A stretch of 34,257 nucleotides of DNA from Alphaproteobacteria bacterium (lineage in GTDB: Bacteria; Pseudomonadota; Alphaproteobacteria; RF32; CAG-239), in assembly GCA_017475525.1 (NCBI GenBank), contig JAFVFH010000061.1:1-34257 (forward strand), in the 5' to 3' direction. How positions within the stretch are numbered: position 1 is the stretch's first letter; each line of letters opens with the position of its first letter. Under the pieces are notes generated by a model. That model was not told the origin of the DNA. It ran no database searches and saw nothing but the letters and a program-made list of their open reading frames with translations. This document shows, piece by piece, positions 428 to 31,942 of this stretch. Both the position numbers and the translations under genes were made by a program.

Positions 428-1267
428 TCACTTATACCTGATTCTAAACGTATTACCTGTTTTCTTTGAAACCTTTTCCGCTTCGTCAAGAGTATATATT
501 CTTTTCATGCGAACGCCCTTTTTTTCACCGATACACCCAAGCGTTCCATACCTCATGTTGTCAACAATATAGCTGCCATCGCTTGTTTTTGTGTATAAAA
601 TCGGCGTTATCCCGAGCTTCTCTGCCGCCGCCCGACACATATCCATTTGCTTTGCCGAGCAATAAAGTTCTTTAATACCCGTTTTGCCATACGCAGCGAC
701 TCCTGCAAAAACATTAACATCCAAACTTTCAAGATTCTCCGGAATAATGAGCGCTTTTAGGTGAGAGTTGCCACCAAAGGAATATGAACCGGCACTTTCC
801 AAATCTTCAGATAAAACCAGACTTTTAATACCTGTATGCGAAATCCCCCAACTTCCGATTTCTTTTACCGTGCTCGGAAGCACTAAATTTTGTAGGCTAG
901 AACATGAGTGAAAGGCAAGAGCTCCAATACTTTCCAAGCCGTCAGGCAAATTCGCTTGCCGAATATAGAGCATATCTTCAAACGCGTCATATCCGATAGA
1001 CGTTATCCCCTTGCCGATATTTAAGCTCGTCACTTGAGAAACATAGCTTTTCCAAGGCGCCGAAGTTGTGCATTCCGTGTCGCAATTAACCCTTGTATAG
1101 TCTTTGATTGCACCGCTTCCCGTGATATTAAGCAGTCCCTCATCATTAATTTCCCAGTGACAATCCTCTCCGCAGTCATCACCTTGTGCAATGATATCAG
1201 CGTGTGCTCCGTTTATTGTCAGATTTATCCCAAACATCCATATCAGCAAAAAAATCAATTTTTTCAT
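428..1267 (-). CDS. Secreted BspA-like leucine-rich-repeat protein (LRR_5 type)
   Basis: A 279-residue protein with a signal peptide at residues 1-23, likely cut after AHA. Next comes a short Cys-containing domain (CGEDC) and then about four BspA/LRR_5 repeats of the form L..I..GITSIGYDAF and LVLPSTVKEIG. This repeat family usually forms solenoids on the cell surface or in the periplasm for adhesion or binding. The last 25 residues, with KRIYTLDEAEKVSKKTGNTF and a final IRYK, nearly match the C-terminus of the paralogue at 30800-31618, so the end is a conserved module. The start is ATG at 1267 with the ribosome site CAGGAG 8 nt upstream. The gene lies behind a structured leader (1341-1502, minus) that ends in a terminator. 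The ligand is unknown. Confidence 0.85.
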   Translation of the reverse strand: MKKLIFLLIWMFGINLTINGAHADIIAQGDDCGEDCHWEINDEGLLNITGSGAIKDYTRVNCDTECTTSAPWKSYVSQVTSLNIGKGITSIGYDAFEDMLYIRQANLPDGLESIGALAFHSCSSLQNLVLPSTVKEIGSWGISHTGIKSLVLSEDLESAGSYSFGGNSHLKALIIPENLESLDVNVFAGVAAYGKTGIKELYCSAKQMDMCRAAAEKLGITPILYTKTSDGSYIVDNMRYGTLGCIGEKKGVRMKRIYTLDEAEKVSKKTGNTFRIRYK

Positions 1268-7715: not shown

Positions 7716-7985
7716 TCATCAGGCGCGAGAGTTTTCTCGTGCTTAGTACCTATAGAATGGTGCGGAGGACTTAACAATCCTTACCCAGTGCGGCGACAAG
7801 GATATACGCCGAAAGCATTGTCGGCTTAAAATAAAGCCCGATGATGTATATATCCCCGATTTATTGGTTCGGGGAGCTTCCAACGCATACAACAGGAGTT
7901 TTGCTCTAAAGGTTGGAAGGATCAACTCACTGGGATGATTTGTTAACTCTCCGACCGCCTTAATCAAAAGGTGGTCTTCTTTTAT
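7716..7985 (+). ncRNA. Structured junction RNA of unknown family, leader of the thermonuclease gene
   Basis: About 270 nt with a clear fold. A first hairpin GCGCGAGA/TCTCGTGC (7724-7743) is followed by a long closing stem: TTAACA/TGTTAA (7772-7777 with 7942-7947) and CCCAGTG/CACTGGG (7785-7791 with 7929-7935). Inside are four hairpins: CGGCG/CGCCG (7792-7812), a long stem at 7816-7848, TCCCCGA/TCGGGGA (7854-7876) and CTTCCAAC/GTTGGAAG (7878-7920). An intrinsic terminator ends it. It lacks the hallmarks of RNase P, tmRNA, SRP RNA and common riboswitches that I checked by eye. It may be a free small RNA or an attenuating leader of the nuclease gene, which starts 12 nt later. Confidence 0.65.
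7954..7985 (+). terminator. Intrinsic terminator of the junction RNA
   Basis: GACCGCCTT (7954-7962) and AAGGTGGTC (7969-7977) followed by TTCTTTT. It is placed directly before the thermonuclease start, as in attenuators. Confidence 0.8.
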
Positions 7986-22605: not shown

Positions 22606-22947
22606 ATGGCAAAAAAAAACATGTTAAATGAGAGCATTCCATATCAGGTGGAAAGCTTTATTCGAGAATTAGGACAGAATCTGAAAACAGCAAGATTACG
22701 CCGGAATCTATCTATTCAATCGGTAGCAGATAAAATCGGGGTTTCTCGTAATTTAGTTGCTGCTGCTGAAAAGGGTAGTTTAACTTCATCAATTTCATTG
22801 TATATAGCACTGCTATGGGCGTATGATTTACAAAGTACAGCGACAGATATAGCAAATCCGTTAAAAGATGAGGTGGGACTACAGCTTGCAAGATTAAAGG
22901 AACCTAAAAAAAGCAGAACAATAAAAGGGCTTGACAATGACTTCTAA
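22606..22947 (+). CDS. HipB-like XRE antitoxin
   Basis: A 113-residue protein whose middle (about 20-75) is a Cro/C1-type HTH: LGQNLKTARLRRNLSIQSVA, then IGVSRNLVAAAEKGSLTSS. The basic C-terminus ends RTIKGLDNDF. It lies directly upstream of a HipA-type kinase and overlaps it by 11 bases. In known type II HipBA systems HipB binds the operator and holds HipA inactive. The start is ATG 22606 with ribosome site GAGGGAG. Codon use is more AT-rich than in the housekeeping genes, suggesting transfer. Confidence 0.88.
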   Translation: MAKKNMLNESIPYQVESFIRELGQNLKTARLRRNLSIQSVADKIGVSRNLVAAAEKGSLTSSISLYIALLWAYDLQSTATDIANPLKDEVGLQLARLKEPKKSRTIKGLDNDF

Positions 22948-24208
22948 CAAAAAAGAATGCTTTGTATATATAACTCTTCCGAATCAAACGGAAATGGTTA
23001 CAGCCGGAAAATACGTCTTGGAACACATCGATCGAAATATTCATCAAGGACAATTTATTTATGGCAGATCATATCTTTCTCGTCCTGATGCTGTCGAAAT
23101 TGACCCGGTAGAACTTAAATTAACCTCAAATTCTTATGAGACTGTTCTTATGAAAGGTATCTTTGGCGCCATTAGAGATTCTTCTCCTGATTATTGGGGG
23201 AGACGAGTTATTGAAAACCATGTTAACATTTTGGATATGGATGAAGTAGATTATTTATTAAATTCTGCCGATGATAGAATTGGAGCTTTAGGCTTCGGGT
23301 TAAATCAAACGCCACCGGCTCCAAACAGAAATTTTAATCAAAAAATTCAGTTGGCCGCTTTACAAGAAGAAGCCGAGAAATACGTCAGAGATGATGTCAA
23401 ATCAGAAAAAAAAGACCCCATTAAAGCACAAGTCGCAGAACTTTTATTGGTAGGGACTTCTATGGGTGGCGCAAGGCCGAAAGCCGTTATAGAAGATAAT
23501 AACAAATTATGGGTTGCTAAATTTAATCGCTTTGATGACAAGTGGAATAATGCTCTTGTAGAACATGCGATGCTAAAATTAGCTGAAGCATGTGGAATTG
23601 AAACTGCTTTACATAAAATAGTGACCGTTGCTAATAAAGATGTCCTTTTATTAAAACGATTTGACCGTGAAAATGTTGAACAAGGATATTTGCGTTATCG
23701 TATGATGAGTGCTCTAACCGTATTAAAGGCCGGAGATGATTATACGCAAAGAGAGAAATGGTCTTATATTTCACTGGCAGAAGAACTCAGACGGATTTCT
23801 GAAAAACCGAAAGAAGATGCGAAAGAGCTCTTTAAAAGAATGGTTTTTAATGCCCTTATTTCTAATACGGACGACCATCCCAGAAATCATGCTTTTATTG
23901 CCAAAAACAAGACATGGAAATTATCCCCTGCTTATGATTTAACACCCAATCCATTGGTTAGTATTGAATCCAGAGATTTGGCTATGATTTGTGGTGATTA
24001 TGGCAGAAAAGCGAATAAATATAATTTGTTAACACAAGCTAAAAGATTTTTGTTATCTGATGATGAGGCAAAAGATATTATTAACAGGATGGAGAAAATA
24101 GTATCGTCCAAATGGTATTCTATTGCCAAATCCGCAGGCGTGTCAGAAAATGATTGTGAAAAAATCAGAGGGGCCTTTGTATATGAGGGGTTTAACTATA
24201 AACCATAG
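22937..24208 (+). CDS. HipA-like serine/threonine kinase toxin
   Basis: A 423-residue protein of HipA size. It has an N-terminal HipA_N-type region with GIFGAIRDSSPDYWGRRVIE. The kinase core has the flexible loop GTSMGGARPKAVI, ATP-binding Lys in WVAKF, VLLLKRFDR, the catalytic loop ISNTDDHPRNHAF and the metal motif SPAYDLTPNP (an equivalent of DFG). HipA enzymes phosphorylate aminoacyl-tRNA synthetases such as GltX and cause growth arrest. I chose ATG 22937 with AGGG upstream over TTG 22931; it overlaps hipB. All catalytic residues appear intact. Confidence 0.92.
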   Translation: MTSNKKECFVYITLPNQTEMVTAGKYVLEHIDRNIHQGQFIYGRSYLSRPDAVEIDPVELKLTSNSYETVLMKGIFGAIRDSSPDYWGRRVIENHVNILDMDEVDYLLNSADDRIGALGFGLNQTPPAPNRNFNQKIQLAALQEEAEKYVRDDVKSEKKDPIKAQVAELLLVGTSMGGARPKAVIEDNNKLWVAKFNRFDDKWNNALVEHAMLKLAEACGIETALHKIVTVANKDVLLLKRFDRENVEQGYLRYRMMSALTVLKAGDDYTQREKWSYISLAEELRRISEKPKEDAKELFKRMVFNALISNTDDHPRNHAFIAKNKTWKLSPAYDLTPNPLVSIESRDLAMICGDYGRKANKYNLLTQAKRFLLSDDEAKDIINRMEKIVSSKWYSIAKSAGVSENDCEKIRGAFVYEGFNYKP

Positions 24209-25899: not shown

Positions 25900-25927
25900 T
25901 TGACTTTTTTTTACCTTTTCACATAAT
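25900..25927 (+). promoter_or_regulatory. Promoter of leader RNA copy A
   Basis: TTGACT (25900-25905), 16 nt, CATAAT (25922-25927). It places the RNA start near 25934, two or three bases before the 5' arm of the conserved leader. Confidence 0.65.
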
Positions 25928-25933
25928 AGACCT

Positions 25934-26085
25934 GTAACCGAAACGGTTGCGGTGTTTCATAGATACCAACATATCAACTCCAGTTAAGGGGAGTAAGTGA
26001 AATAAGGCTCAGCTCGAATAAACTTATTTGCATGTTGCAATCTATGAACTCCCCGTTTTGGTTTTTAACTGAAACGATTTTTTTT
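25934..26085 (+). ncRNA. Structured leader RNA, copy A (attenuator-like)
   Basis: The 5' arm AACCGAAACGG (25936-25946) can pair over 11 bp with CCGTTTTGGTT (26053-26063). Inside is a 9-bp stem TTCATAGAT/ATCTATGAA (25956-25964 with 26040-26048), then AACAT/ATGTT, an inner hairpin ACTCC/GGAGT, and AAATAAG/CTTATTT. GGGGAGT (25988-25994) can also pair with ACTCCCC just after the main stem, as a pseudoknot. CGTTTTGGTT also pairs with AACTGAAACG (26067-26076) to form a terminator with a long T run. The two pairings exclude each other, as in riboswitches and attenuators. A GGAGG follows, but the start codon position reads ATA, so this copy has no gene of its own. Confidence 0.8.
26054..26084 (+). 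terminator. Switchable terminator of leader copy A
   Basis: CGTTTTGGTT, ttt, AACTGAAACG plus ATTTTTTTT. It competes with the 11-bp stem formed by the 5' end of the transcript. Confidence 0.75.
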
Positions 26086-26102
26086 ACGGAGGTTTTTTAT
26101 AC

Positions 26103-26131
26103 TTTACTTTTAATATTTCATCACATATACT
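26103..26131 (+). promoter_or_regulatory. Promoter of leader RNA copy B
   Basis: TTTACT (26103-26108), 17 nt, TATACT (26126-26131); start near 26138. Confidence 0.65.
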
Positions 26132-26137
26132 TAAACA

Positions 26138-26293
26138 CGTAACCGAAACGGTTGCGGTGTTACAACACACATCAGAACAATGCTCCATCAAAGGGGAGTT
26201 GAGGAAATAAGGGCTGTGCCGCGAATAACTCTGGCTGTGTTCTGCAGTTGTTGTAGCTCCCCGTTTTGGTTTTTAACTGAAACGATTTTTTTT
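26138..26293 (+). ncRNA. Structured leader RNA, copy B, upstream of the HTH gene
   Basis: Same design as copy A: AACCGAAACGG at the 5' end (26141-26151) pairs with CCGTTTTGGTT (26261-26271). The main stem is TACAACA/TGTTGTA (26161-26167 with 26249-26255) and CAGAAC/GTTCTG (26173-26178 with 26239-26244). These arms differ in sequence from copies A and C but stay paired. The motifs GAAATAAG (26204) and CGAATAA (26222) and the GGGGAG/CTCCCC pairing are kept. The terminator CGTTTTGGTT/AACTGAAACG (26262-26284) with a T run is followed by GGAGG and the ATG of the HTH gene. Confidence 0.8.
26262..26293 (+). terminator. Switchable terminator of leader copy B
   Basis: The hairpin is identical to that of copy A, followed by a T run 13 nt before the HTH start codon. 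Confidence 0.75.
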
Positions 26294-26305: not shown

Positions 26306-26542
26306 ATGTCAAAACTATGCAGAGATATTCAAAAAAAATTGGGATATGCTTTATGGCAAGAAAGAAGCAAAAGAAATTTAAATATTTTAGCCGTTGCCGA
26401 AAAAGTGAACTTAAATATTGATTCTTTTGATAAAATCGAAAAAGGAACTTTCAGCATATCTTGGCGGTCTTATCAGCGTTTGCTCGATTTTTATCATAGA
26501 GATATTGAGATTACGCTTGTCAGGAGAAATGAAAGGGAATGA
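26306..26542 (+). CDS. Small HTH (XRE-like) protein
   Basis: A 78-residue protein made almost wholly of a Cro/C1-like HTH: LGYALWQERSKRNLNILAVA, then VNLNIDSFDKIEKGTFSISW. The C-terminus is basic (VRRNERE). ATG 26306 has the strong ribosome site GGAGG. The longer open frame from 26180 runs through the leader RNA and is rejected. Its expression should be set by leader copy B. It could regulate the leader-linked LRR genes or itself; that is a guess from context. Confidence 0.8.
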   Translation: MSKLCRDIQKKLGYALWQERSKRNLNILAVAEKVNLNIDSFDKIEKGTFSISWRSYQRLLDFYHRDIEITLVRRNERE

Positions 26543-26610
26543 CAATAAAAAAAGACGGTAATTTGGGGAATGACAGGGAAAAAGAGCGCTAATGTTTTTT
26601 TCTGATTTGG

Positions 26611-26720
26611 AAGCGGCGTATGTGCGCCGTAGGCGCGACGCCGGCTTTGAGATCCCTTGATGCGCTGATGCGCCGCACAGCGCAAGGGATGACACTAAAA
26701 GGGTGACGCGAAAGCGCACC
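26611..26720 (-). repeat. Dispersed palindromic repeat, middle copy
   Basis: On the minus strand this is nearly identical to 170-277: the CGCTTTCGCGTCACCC stretch, the ATCCCTTG/CAAGGGAT hairpin and the nested hairpin, here GCGCC/GGCGC. It fills the gap between the HTH gene and the TatA-like gene. Frames across it are spurious. Confidence 0.85.
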
Positions 26721-26752
26721 TTAAAGAATGACAGTAAAAGGGAAGGGAACTC

Positions 26753-30799: not shown

Positions 30800-31618
30800 T
30801 TATTTATAACGCAATTTGAATGTATTGCCCGTTTTTTTTGAAACAAGTGAGGCTTCTTCTATTGAGTAGATGCGCTTGTTCTCTCGTCTGCCTGATGTTG
30901 TGACAAGTTTTCCTTTATTGTCAAACACATAGGTCACACCGTTGACGTGTTTTGTTGTCGCCTTGATTGATTTAAGCTCAGGGTAACCTGCGGCTTTCAA
31001 GTGGTCATCACATTTTTTTGTATCTCCCGTGCAATAGATTTTGAGATTTTGCGTATTGGTAGCAACAGTGTCAACACGATGTTGCTTAAAAATATCCTTC
31101 AAATCGGTTTTATCGCTAATTGTGAGTGTTTCTAAATCAAGGTTCAAACTAAAGGCATAATCATCAACTAAAGTTACATTATCCGGAACAACAATGTTTT
31201 TTAGATATCGCATTCCTCTAAGAGCCATATATCCAATAGATGTTACTGAATCAGGAATATCCAATGTGTTACCATAATAATGATCAAAAGCACTCTTCGG
31301 AATTTCTGTTATTGAGTTGGGAAGTTTTATTGGAGCCGTCAGAGTATAAAAACCATGTGAACCTAAATCTTTGACGCTATCTTCAAGCACAATGTTTTTG
31401 ACATCTTTATCAATCCAAGGTGAAATACCACGCCCGGAAGATGAATCATACCAGCTTCCGATATTGCCATTATTACCAACACCGCGAATCGTTAATGTGC
31501 CGTCAATGATTTGATATTCGCAGTTTGCCGTATTGCCCTCGGCATCTGTGCCGCAAGGCTCCCACGCGTTGGCATTAAAACTTGAAAGGATTCCTAAAAT
31601 TAAAACTGTTTTTTTCAT
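30800..31618 (-). CDS. Secreted BspA-like leucine-rich-repeat protein, paralogue of 428-1267
   Basis: A 272-residue protein with a signal peptide (residues 1-18, ending NANA), a Cys-containing N-terminal strand region (CGTDAEGNTANCEYQIIDGT) and LRR_5 repeats (IVLEDSVKDLGSHGFYTL, LPNSITEIPKSAFDHYYG, IPDSVTSIGYMALRGMR, IVVPDNVTLVDDYAF). It ends in the same C-terminal module as the first LRR protein: NKRIYSIEEASLVSKKTGNT with a final KLRYK. Ribosome site AAGGAG precedes ATG 31618. It is transcribed through its own structured leader with terminator, as the other LRR gene is. A surface or periplasmic binding role is likely. Confidence 0.85.
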   Translation of the reverse strand: MKKTVLILGILSSFNANAWEPCGTDAEGNTANCEYQIIDGTLTIRGVGNNGNIGSWYDSSSGRGISPWIDKDVKNIVLEDSVKDLGSHGFYTLTAPIKLPNSITEIPKSAFDHYYGNTLDIPDSVTSIGYMALRGMRYLKNIVVPDNVTLVDDYAFSLNLDLETLTISDKTDLKDIFKQHRVDTVATNTQNLKIYCTGDTKKCDDHLKAAGYPELKSIKATTKHVNGVTYVFDNKGKLVTTSGRRENKRIYSIEEASLVSKKTGNTFKLRYK

Positions 31619-31696: not shown

Positions 31697-31724
31697 GAAA
31701 AAGAAAATCCGCTCGATTGAGCGG
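31697..31724 (-). terminator. Terminator within the second LRR leader
   Basis: CCGCTC, aatc, GAGCGG followed by ATTTTCTTTTTC, about 80 nt before the start codon. Confidence 0.75.
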
Positions 31725-31942
31725 CAGGGGAGTTCAGAAATCATGTTGCAAGTAATGACTATTATGACCTTTAGAAAAAAATCTTGAACATACGTCATAA
31801 TCTCCCCACCAATGCGGGGATTTTAAATACCAAAAAAGGCACCCAAAATGGATACCATTTCCGGTATCTTGCAACATAGAGCCTCTGACAGCCCCGAACC
31901 TCTCGGTTCTCGATAAAAAAAGTTATTCACTCTCTTTATCTG
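31697..31942 (-). ncRNA. Structured leader RNA, copy D (diverged), upstream of the second LRR gene
   Basis: On the minus strand: GAACC-gaga-GGTTC hairpin followed by GGGG; a 10-bp main stem ATGTTGCAAG/CTTGCAACAT; inside it ATACC/GGTAT, a CCCC/GGGG hairpin whose 3' side reads GGGGAG, and TATGAC/GTCATA. Right after the main stem comes GAACTCCCC, as in copy A, and then the terminator CCGCTC/GAGCGG with a T-rich tail. Element order matches copies A-C, but the primary sequence differs and the GAAATAAG box is not obvious. Family membership is inferred, while the structure itself is clear. Confidence 0.6.

Follow-up and report, generated by a model that had tools for sequence, protein, structure and literature searches.

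The two tandem elements at positions 25934 to 26293 of the window (the whole 34,257-nucleotide stretch of alphaproteobacterial DNA analysed here) probably belong to a so far undescribed family of 5' leader RNAs that act in cis on transcription read-through, i.e., by attenuation. The structure, covariation, alternative pairing, promoters, terminators and gene association of the family were determined by sequence, and from these we infer that the RNA switches, that read-through is its output, and in which direction it acts. The family, designated class I here, is an RNA family absent from Rfam. A scan of the whole window against Rfam returned two tRNAs only, and permissive scans of copies A and B, of six other class I loci and of three loci of a second leader class (class II, see below) gave nothing near the gathering threshold, which agrees with the original prediction of an attenuator-like leader of no known family. 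The best Rfam overlap for copy A, U4, reached 18.7 bits against a threshold of 46 bits and was dismissed as chance.

Architecture of the tandem leaders

Copies A and B are leaders of approximately 155 nt, each with its own promoter and intrinsic terminator, that lie in tandem upstream of a small helix-turn-helix (HTH) gene. Copy A (25934-26085, plus strand) matches the class I covariance model over its full length with 129.6 bits and has a fold z-score of −4.45, while copy B (26139-26293, plus strand) is likewise a full-length match (127.4 bits, z = −3.81); for neither copy did any of 200 dinucleotide shuffles fold as well as the native sequence. These limits are the ones originally predicted for A, whereas B had been placed one base too early, at 26138, its first base being G26139. 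The sequences given in that prediction are exact, with AACCGAAACGG at 25936 and 26141, CCGTTTTGGTT at 26053 and 26261, and AACTGAAACG at 26067 and 26275, and a copy C, which had only been implied, was located at 1344-1502 on the minus strand (122.5 bits).

Sigma-70-like boxes are present at a constant distance upstream of both copies. The promoter of A (25900-25927, plus strand) consists of a −35 box TTGACT (25900-25905) and a −10 box CATAAT (25922-25927) with a 16-nt spacer, and that of B (26103-26131, plus strand) of TTTACT (26103-26108) and TATACT (26126-26131) with a 17-nt spacer. Among 58 copies of the same genome with a recognised promoter, 53 have the end of the −10 box 6-7 nt upstream of the RNA, and the 5' end of the leader is therefore predictable.

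All parts of copy A described in the following are on the plus strand. The RNA starts with a 5' hairpin, P0 (GTAACCGAAACGGTTGC, 25934-25950), a covarying helix whose sequence is exchanged in many copies. It is followed by a GGTGT box (25951-25955), which can form a hairpin, P1a, with an AxAC strand downstream, and the next base belongs to a pseudoknot pair (alignment columns 23-99); in the copy alignment the P1a pairs are 97-99% standard, and pair 23-99 is 99% standard with three pair types. Helix P1 joins TTCATAGAT (25956-25964) to ATCTATGAA (26040-26048), as indicated by inverted repeat I4 and by covariation (E = 0 in our own test), and P2, the strongest covarying helix, joins CAACAT (25967-25972) to 26032-26037. 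Within P2 lies P3, whose 5' arm ACTCC (25977-25981) has its partner at 25990-25994 in 89-99% of copies, and whose 3' arm GGGGAGT (25988-25994) is a shared strand with two possible partners, the P3 5' arm and the pre-terminator strand ACTCCCC (26048-26054). P4 (AAGT/ACTT, 25995-26025) is capped by P5; both covary, and they form a candidate recognition core with an internal loop, GAAATAAG (25999-26006) opposite CGAATAA (26015-26021), whose bases are almost invariant across 84 copies of the genome. The pre-terminator strand overlaps the base of the intrinsic terminator (26053-26085), a covarying helix of CCGTTTTGGTT and AACTGAAACG followed by T8; the median terminator fold over 196 copies is −11.25 kcal/mol. 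In copy B the P3 3' arm GGGGAGT and the pre-terminator strand GCTCCCC are found by sequence at 26194-26200 and 26256-26262. As originally noted, the main stem differs between A and B with its pairing kept, while GAAATAAG and CGAATAA are constant.

Covariation and the alternative pairing

Covariation was evaluated with an R-scape-like test rather than R-scape itself, using an APC-corrected G-statistic and a null in which Fitch substitutions were re-dealt along a FastTree tree. Among 83 copies of the genome 37 pairs were significant (E ≤ 0.05), most of them in P0, P1, P2, P4, P5 and the terminator, and including a few dependent pairs inside the terminator. An alignment of 99 copies from many genera again gave 37 significant pairs, including P0, P1, P2, P4, P5 and the terminator. 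The covariation that had been predicted thus exceeds phylogeny under a null that preserves it. Because the alignment was fitted to the model, it leans to the pairs of the model, and two pairs outside the model were significant all the same. One of them, 23-99, is a pseudoknot because it crosses P1, and in the 99 copies from many genera it is C-G in 68 and T-A in 22, with 98% standard pairs. The other, 58-127, occurs in five types (G-C 52, A-T 24, G-T 10, T-A 4, C-G 3; 97% standard).

Pair 58-127 is part of a helix of 6-9 bp formed by the P3 3' arm (RRGGAGU) with the RCUCCYY strand directly before the terminator, so that the P3 hairpin and the pre-terminator helix use one and the same 3' arm. 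Over 196 copies, the variable position of this helix is paired in 98%, compared with 71% after shuffling (maximum 77%), and at least six contiguous pairs are formed in 187 copies. Native pairings surpass permuted ones by 2 kcal/mol, with none of 2000 permutations as good, and in 160 of the 196 copies 1-3 nt of the terminator base are part of the helix. Covariation between the two arms of P3 itself is modest (89% vs. 80% shuffled, maximum 85%), because most of P3 is invariant. Judging from these sequence comparisons, the exclusive pairing that has been kept in evolution appears to be that of the P3 3' arm with either the P3 5' arm or the pre-terminator strand.

This is not the switch that had been proposed originally, in which the 5' arm of the leader competes for the terminator. 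The complementarity on which that proposal relied is indeed present in A and B. However, in about 18 of the 84 copies of the genome, or 24 when all starts other than AACC are included, the terminators are unchanged but the 5' hairpin is an unrelated one (ATCAAACGAT, GCGACGAGTTGTCGC, CTATCTGAAATAGATAG and others), with little or no complementarity between the two, and unrelated 5' hairpins are also found in other genera. Therefore, pairing between the 5' arm and the terminator cannot be the mechanism of the family, and it was rejected as such. In AACC-type copies the native pairs of 5' arm and terminator have a slight advantage over permuted ones (matched by 7 of 2000 permutations), and a role in that subfamily is therefore possible.

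P1a (GGTGT with ACACC) and a CTG/CAG hairpin near the 3' strand of P2 have central pairs that are 97-100% paired, with a few compensatory changes. P1a, the CUG/CAG hairpin and P1/P2 cannot all coexist. P1a and the CTG/CAG hairpin may be folding intermediates or alternative states.

Taken together, we propose that the transcript from the leader's own promoter would fold into a pseudoknotted core of P1, P2 and P4/P5 with its GAnATAAG/CGAATAA loop, in which the pseudoknot pair would join the GGTGT box to the P4 side, and that the leader would end in its intrinsic terminator, with the ribosome-binding site of the downstream gene close behind. Pairing of the P3 3' arm (RRGGAGU) with the P3 5' arm would leave the terminator free, whereas its pairing with the RCUCCYY pre-terminator strand would take 1-3 nt of the terminator base, and a signal sensed by the conserved core would select one of the two states; this signal may be a small molecule, or a protein, for instance the small HTH protein. 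We slightly favor the state with the pre-terminator helix as the one in which the gene is ON. As the overlap with the terminator is only 1-3 nt, the helix, rather than competing with the terminator, could also stack on it.

Distribution of the family and the genes behind its members

A BLAST search with copy A gave approximately 44 matches in its own genome, an 85%-complete MAG of 1.44 Mb. The class I covariance model, R1, which was built from 29 BLAST-found copies of this genome, recovered 84 full-length copies above 95 bits and fragments, i.e., approximately 86 in total, a density of about one in 17 kb. Across the order, at least 111 of 153 genomes and at least 14 of 17 genera have a class I match at E ≤ 1e-4, these counts being lower bounds with about 20 candidates scored per genome. 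Named relatives are the MAGs RUG13121 and RUG11221, which we take to be rumen-derived, and alphaproteobacterium UBA9814. By contrast, in a sample of 299 genomes from the phylum, none of the other 298 matched the class I model, leaving the genome under study as the only one. A conserved 20-mer was absent from the viral contigs searched, and its occurrences in Oscillospiraceae, Treponema, Thermoplasmata and others lack a covariance-model match and were taken as chance. Class I copy number differs widely inside the genus: the leader was not found in G003 and G007 (86% and 59% complete), and G000 has 86. Searches of the literature yielded no description of these leader RNAs or of the C-terminal tag described below.

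In the genome under study, 74 of the 80 copies with an assignable ORF have a start codon on the same strand within 130 nt downstream (median gap approximately 30 nt), mostly with a Shine-Dalgarno sequence. These genes mostly encode exported proteins, comprising BspA-type LRR_5 proteins, YD-like repeat proteins and nine pilin-like proteins (RSMVEMLGVLAI). Copy C, for example, precedes an exported BspA-type LRR_5 protein (428-1267, minus strand; LRR_5 E = 6.2e-21). Whatever their body, 48 of the 68 complete leader-linked ORFs end in a common 25-residue tag, KRIYT(V/I)xEAxxxSKxTGNTF(K/R)LRYK, which occurs at approximately 110 places in the genome and, in the window, at 431-505 and 30803-30877 (both minus strand), the former in the protein behind copy C. 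Pilin-like proteins with the N-terminus RSMVEMLGVLAIIGVLSAGALAGYSKAM, behind class I leaders L003, L096, L118, L119, L121 and L125, are without the tag. In the proteins scanned, the tag is covered by no Pfam or NCBIfam model; it probably serves as a signal for sorting or anchoring in an export route that has not been described before.

Many of the remaining tagged genes follow class II leaders, which have no match to the class I covariance model. In the window, a class II core (31701-31825, minus strand; 124.1 bits with its model, R2) precedes an exported LRR_5 protein (30800-31618, minus strand) that carries the same C-terminal tag at 30803-30877, and another (7848-7979, plus strand; 68.1 bits) lies upstream of an exported protein from 7997. 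The latter protein (plus strand, start MQKIVFYALLLADLMITNALA) resembles a secreted thermonuclease, as judged by eye only. R2 describes the core only, the 5' part of class II (GCGCGGAGCTTT..AAGCTT, CAGTGATGGATAACACTG) being outside the model, and it has 52 matches in the genome, most of them upstream of exported proteins with the tag. Among 98 tagged ORFs located off contig ends, 58 have class I directly upstream and 33 class II, together 91 of 98. Class II also has a P3 hairpin; its 3' arm, GGGGAG, has a complementary pre-terminator strand, CUCCCC or CUCUCC, with a compensated change (GGGGUG/CACUCC) at loci L247 and L259. In addition there is a UCAU/AUGA hairpin with a loop able to pair upstream, as in the class I CTG/CAG hairpin. 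The class II helices covary, with 99.6% of cells paired and 49 double-sided changes, compared with 17 in shuffles. Class I and class II may be homologous.

The gene behind A and B themselves (26306-26542, plus strand) encodes a small XRE/HTH-like protein of 78 amino acids (HTH_19, E = 0.0055). It belongs with a family of 28 small HTH proteins that matches Pfam HTH_3/HTH_25 and solved XRE repressors (best E = 4.5e-11). Further class I copies of the genome also precede HTH genes. In other genera nearly all class I leaders precede small (70-113 amino acids) HTH proteins with LLKFYGKKLEF-like ends; approximately 45 distinct ones lie directly behind a leader, some with tandem leaders as in A/B. These proteins have diverged to 12-33% identity with that of the window, while the RNA core is constant. 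From this partnership in other genera, the pairing of leader and HTH gene seen in A/B and 26306-26542 is probably ancestral, with the regulon of exported proteins as an expansion in this genus. The coherent gene sets behind the copies are in line with what a covariance-model search had been expected to reveal.

Elsewhere in the window, a HipA-like kinase gene (22606-24208, plus strand) is preceded by a small gene that weakly matches the HTH protein behind A/B, and the two are possibly a HipBA-like toxin-antitoxin pair. The 3' side of the HTH gene adjoins an intergenic dispersed palindromic repeat (26535-26740; GGAATGACA.., GCGCCGTAGGCGCGACGCC), and similar sequence is also found after several other leaders.

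Candidate signals, rival explanations and known systems

The class I leader is conserved, structured and located in cis, and it carries an expression platform, as a riboswitch does. A riboswitch proper, in which the core would bind a small molecule or ion by analogy with GEMM/c-di-GMP-I before surface genes, is a serious possibility, if somewhat short of an even chance. The pseudoknot pair, the near-invariant loop bases, the tandem and numerous copies per genome and the surface and pilin-like targets are all aptamer-like, and a strong GGDEF protein, one per genome, is present in every genome of the genus except an incomplete one, so that a cyclic dinucleotide is conceivable, though no more than that. 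However, none of the known aptamer models matches, the GGDEF protein is retained in G003, where the leader was not found, and the commonest targets across the order, small HTH genes, indicate no metabolite. A protein-controlled attenuator is a plausible yet rather doubtful reading, in which the small HTH protein encoded downstream of A/B, or one of its paralogues, would bind the leader and set its own read-through, and would later have come to govern the exported-protein genes in the genus. The approximately 45 HTH proteins of other genera lie directly downstream, often of tandem leaders; the HTH association is wider across the order than the surface-gene association, and the genome under study retains HTH genes behind A/B and other copies. 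On the other hand, the HTH family resembles DNA-binding XRE repressors, its members are 12-33% identical to the protein of the window although the RNA core is fixed, and RNA binding would be only an analogy with Aca2. A leader-peptide attenuator is unlikely because of the indels and the freely changing stems.

Explanations without attenuation are less convincing. With an own promoter and a strong terminator, each unit should yield a discrete RNA of approximately 155 nt, which might act in trans as a stand-alone small RNA and end before genes by chance. This is improbable given that 74 of 80 copies are followed within 130 nt by a start codon on the same strand, in most cases with a Shine-Dalgarno sequence, and that the variable strands are complementary within the RNA and are therefore not free target-pairing regions. 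The dispersal of about 86 copies in one genome and the restriction to a single order would suit a mobile or selfish repeat of the REP/MITE type, a possibility that had been raised originally. Instead of near-identical recent copies without gene orientation bias, we found highly diverged copies with compensatory changes, in which promoter spacing, orientation and the gene behind are kept, and no viral contig with the conserved 20-mer; this explanation is very improbable and was rejected. Scarcely credible is a retron-type VI ncRNA, in the order RNA, HTH gene, reverse transcriptase. Its PADLOC model HTH_VI matches 21 of the 28 small HTH proteins (best 4.3e-11), and A and B have complementary 5' and 3' ends, but this end complementarity (a1/a2) is not conserved, being lost in about 18 of 84 copies, and in two dozen loci no reverse-transcriptase-sized frame follows the HTH gene on the same strand; the HTH gene ends the unit, and the retron was rejected. 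On our best reading, class I leaders are neither mobile repeats nor retrons, and they correspond to no known riboswitch.

Returning to an attenuating leader family, these data suggest that one RNA switch controls much of the cell's surface proteins. Tentatively, and with somewhat less than even confidence, we envisage a riboswitch-like class that was ancestrally associated with HTH genes in an order of uncultured gut Alphaproteobacteria, that was amplified in one genus, together with class II, to approximately 135 leaders, and that may now govern nearly all tagged exported proteins, so that one RNA-sensed signal would set the surface proteome. Few bacterial RNA elements are known at such density with so coherent a target set, and if this picture is true, a single signal sensed by RNA chooses the surface proteins of an uncultured gut lineage. 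The family also provides paralogous switches in large numbers (84 in one genome and hundreds in the order) as a natural library for studies of ligand, fold and evolution, and the C-terminal tag linked to it marks a probable new export or sorting route.

Among known systems, ZTP and fluoride riboswitches of the ON type have a pseudoknot that overlaps the terminator base, and class I resembles them in that a 3' strand of the aptamer doubles as terminator base. However, the overlap in class I is only 1-3 nt, the fold is different, and there is no Rfam match. Retron type VI (PADLOC HTH_VI) likewise has an RNA directly 5' of a small HTH gene, but the class I unit is without a reverse transcriptase gene. 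GEMM/c-di-GMP-I and c-GAMP riboswitches (RF01051) are known for many and tandem copies per genome, for surface and pilin genes as targets and for a terminator platform, all of which are found in class I. By contrast, class I has no covariance-model match to them, possesses its own core (GGTGT, GAnATAAG/CGAATAA) and a pseudoknotted P3 platform, and has small HTH genes as its main targets across the order. GEMM-type riboswitches occur in both ON and OFF forms (PMC9262584). In the ANTAR/EutV (PMC3369931) and BglG/SacT systems, too, a single regulator acts on many operons through hairpins in the leader ahead of the terminator, whereas in class I no ANTAR or RAT motif was seen, the core is larger and pseudoknotted, and the candidate regulator is an XRE-like HTH protein.
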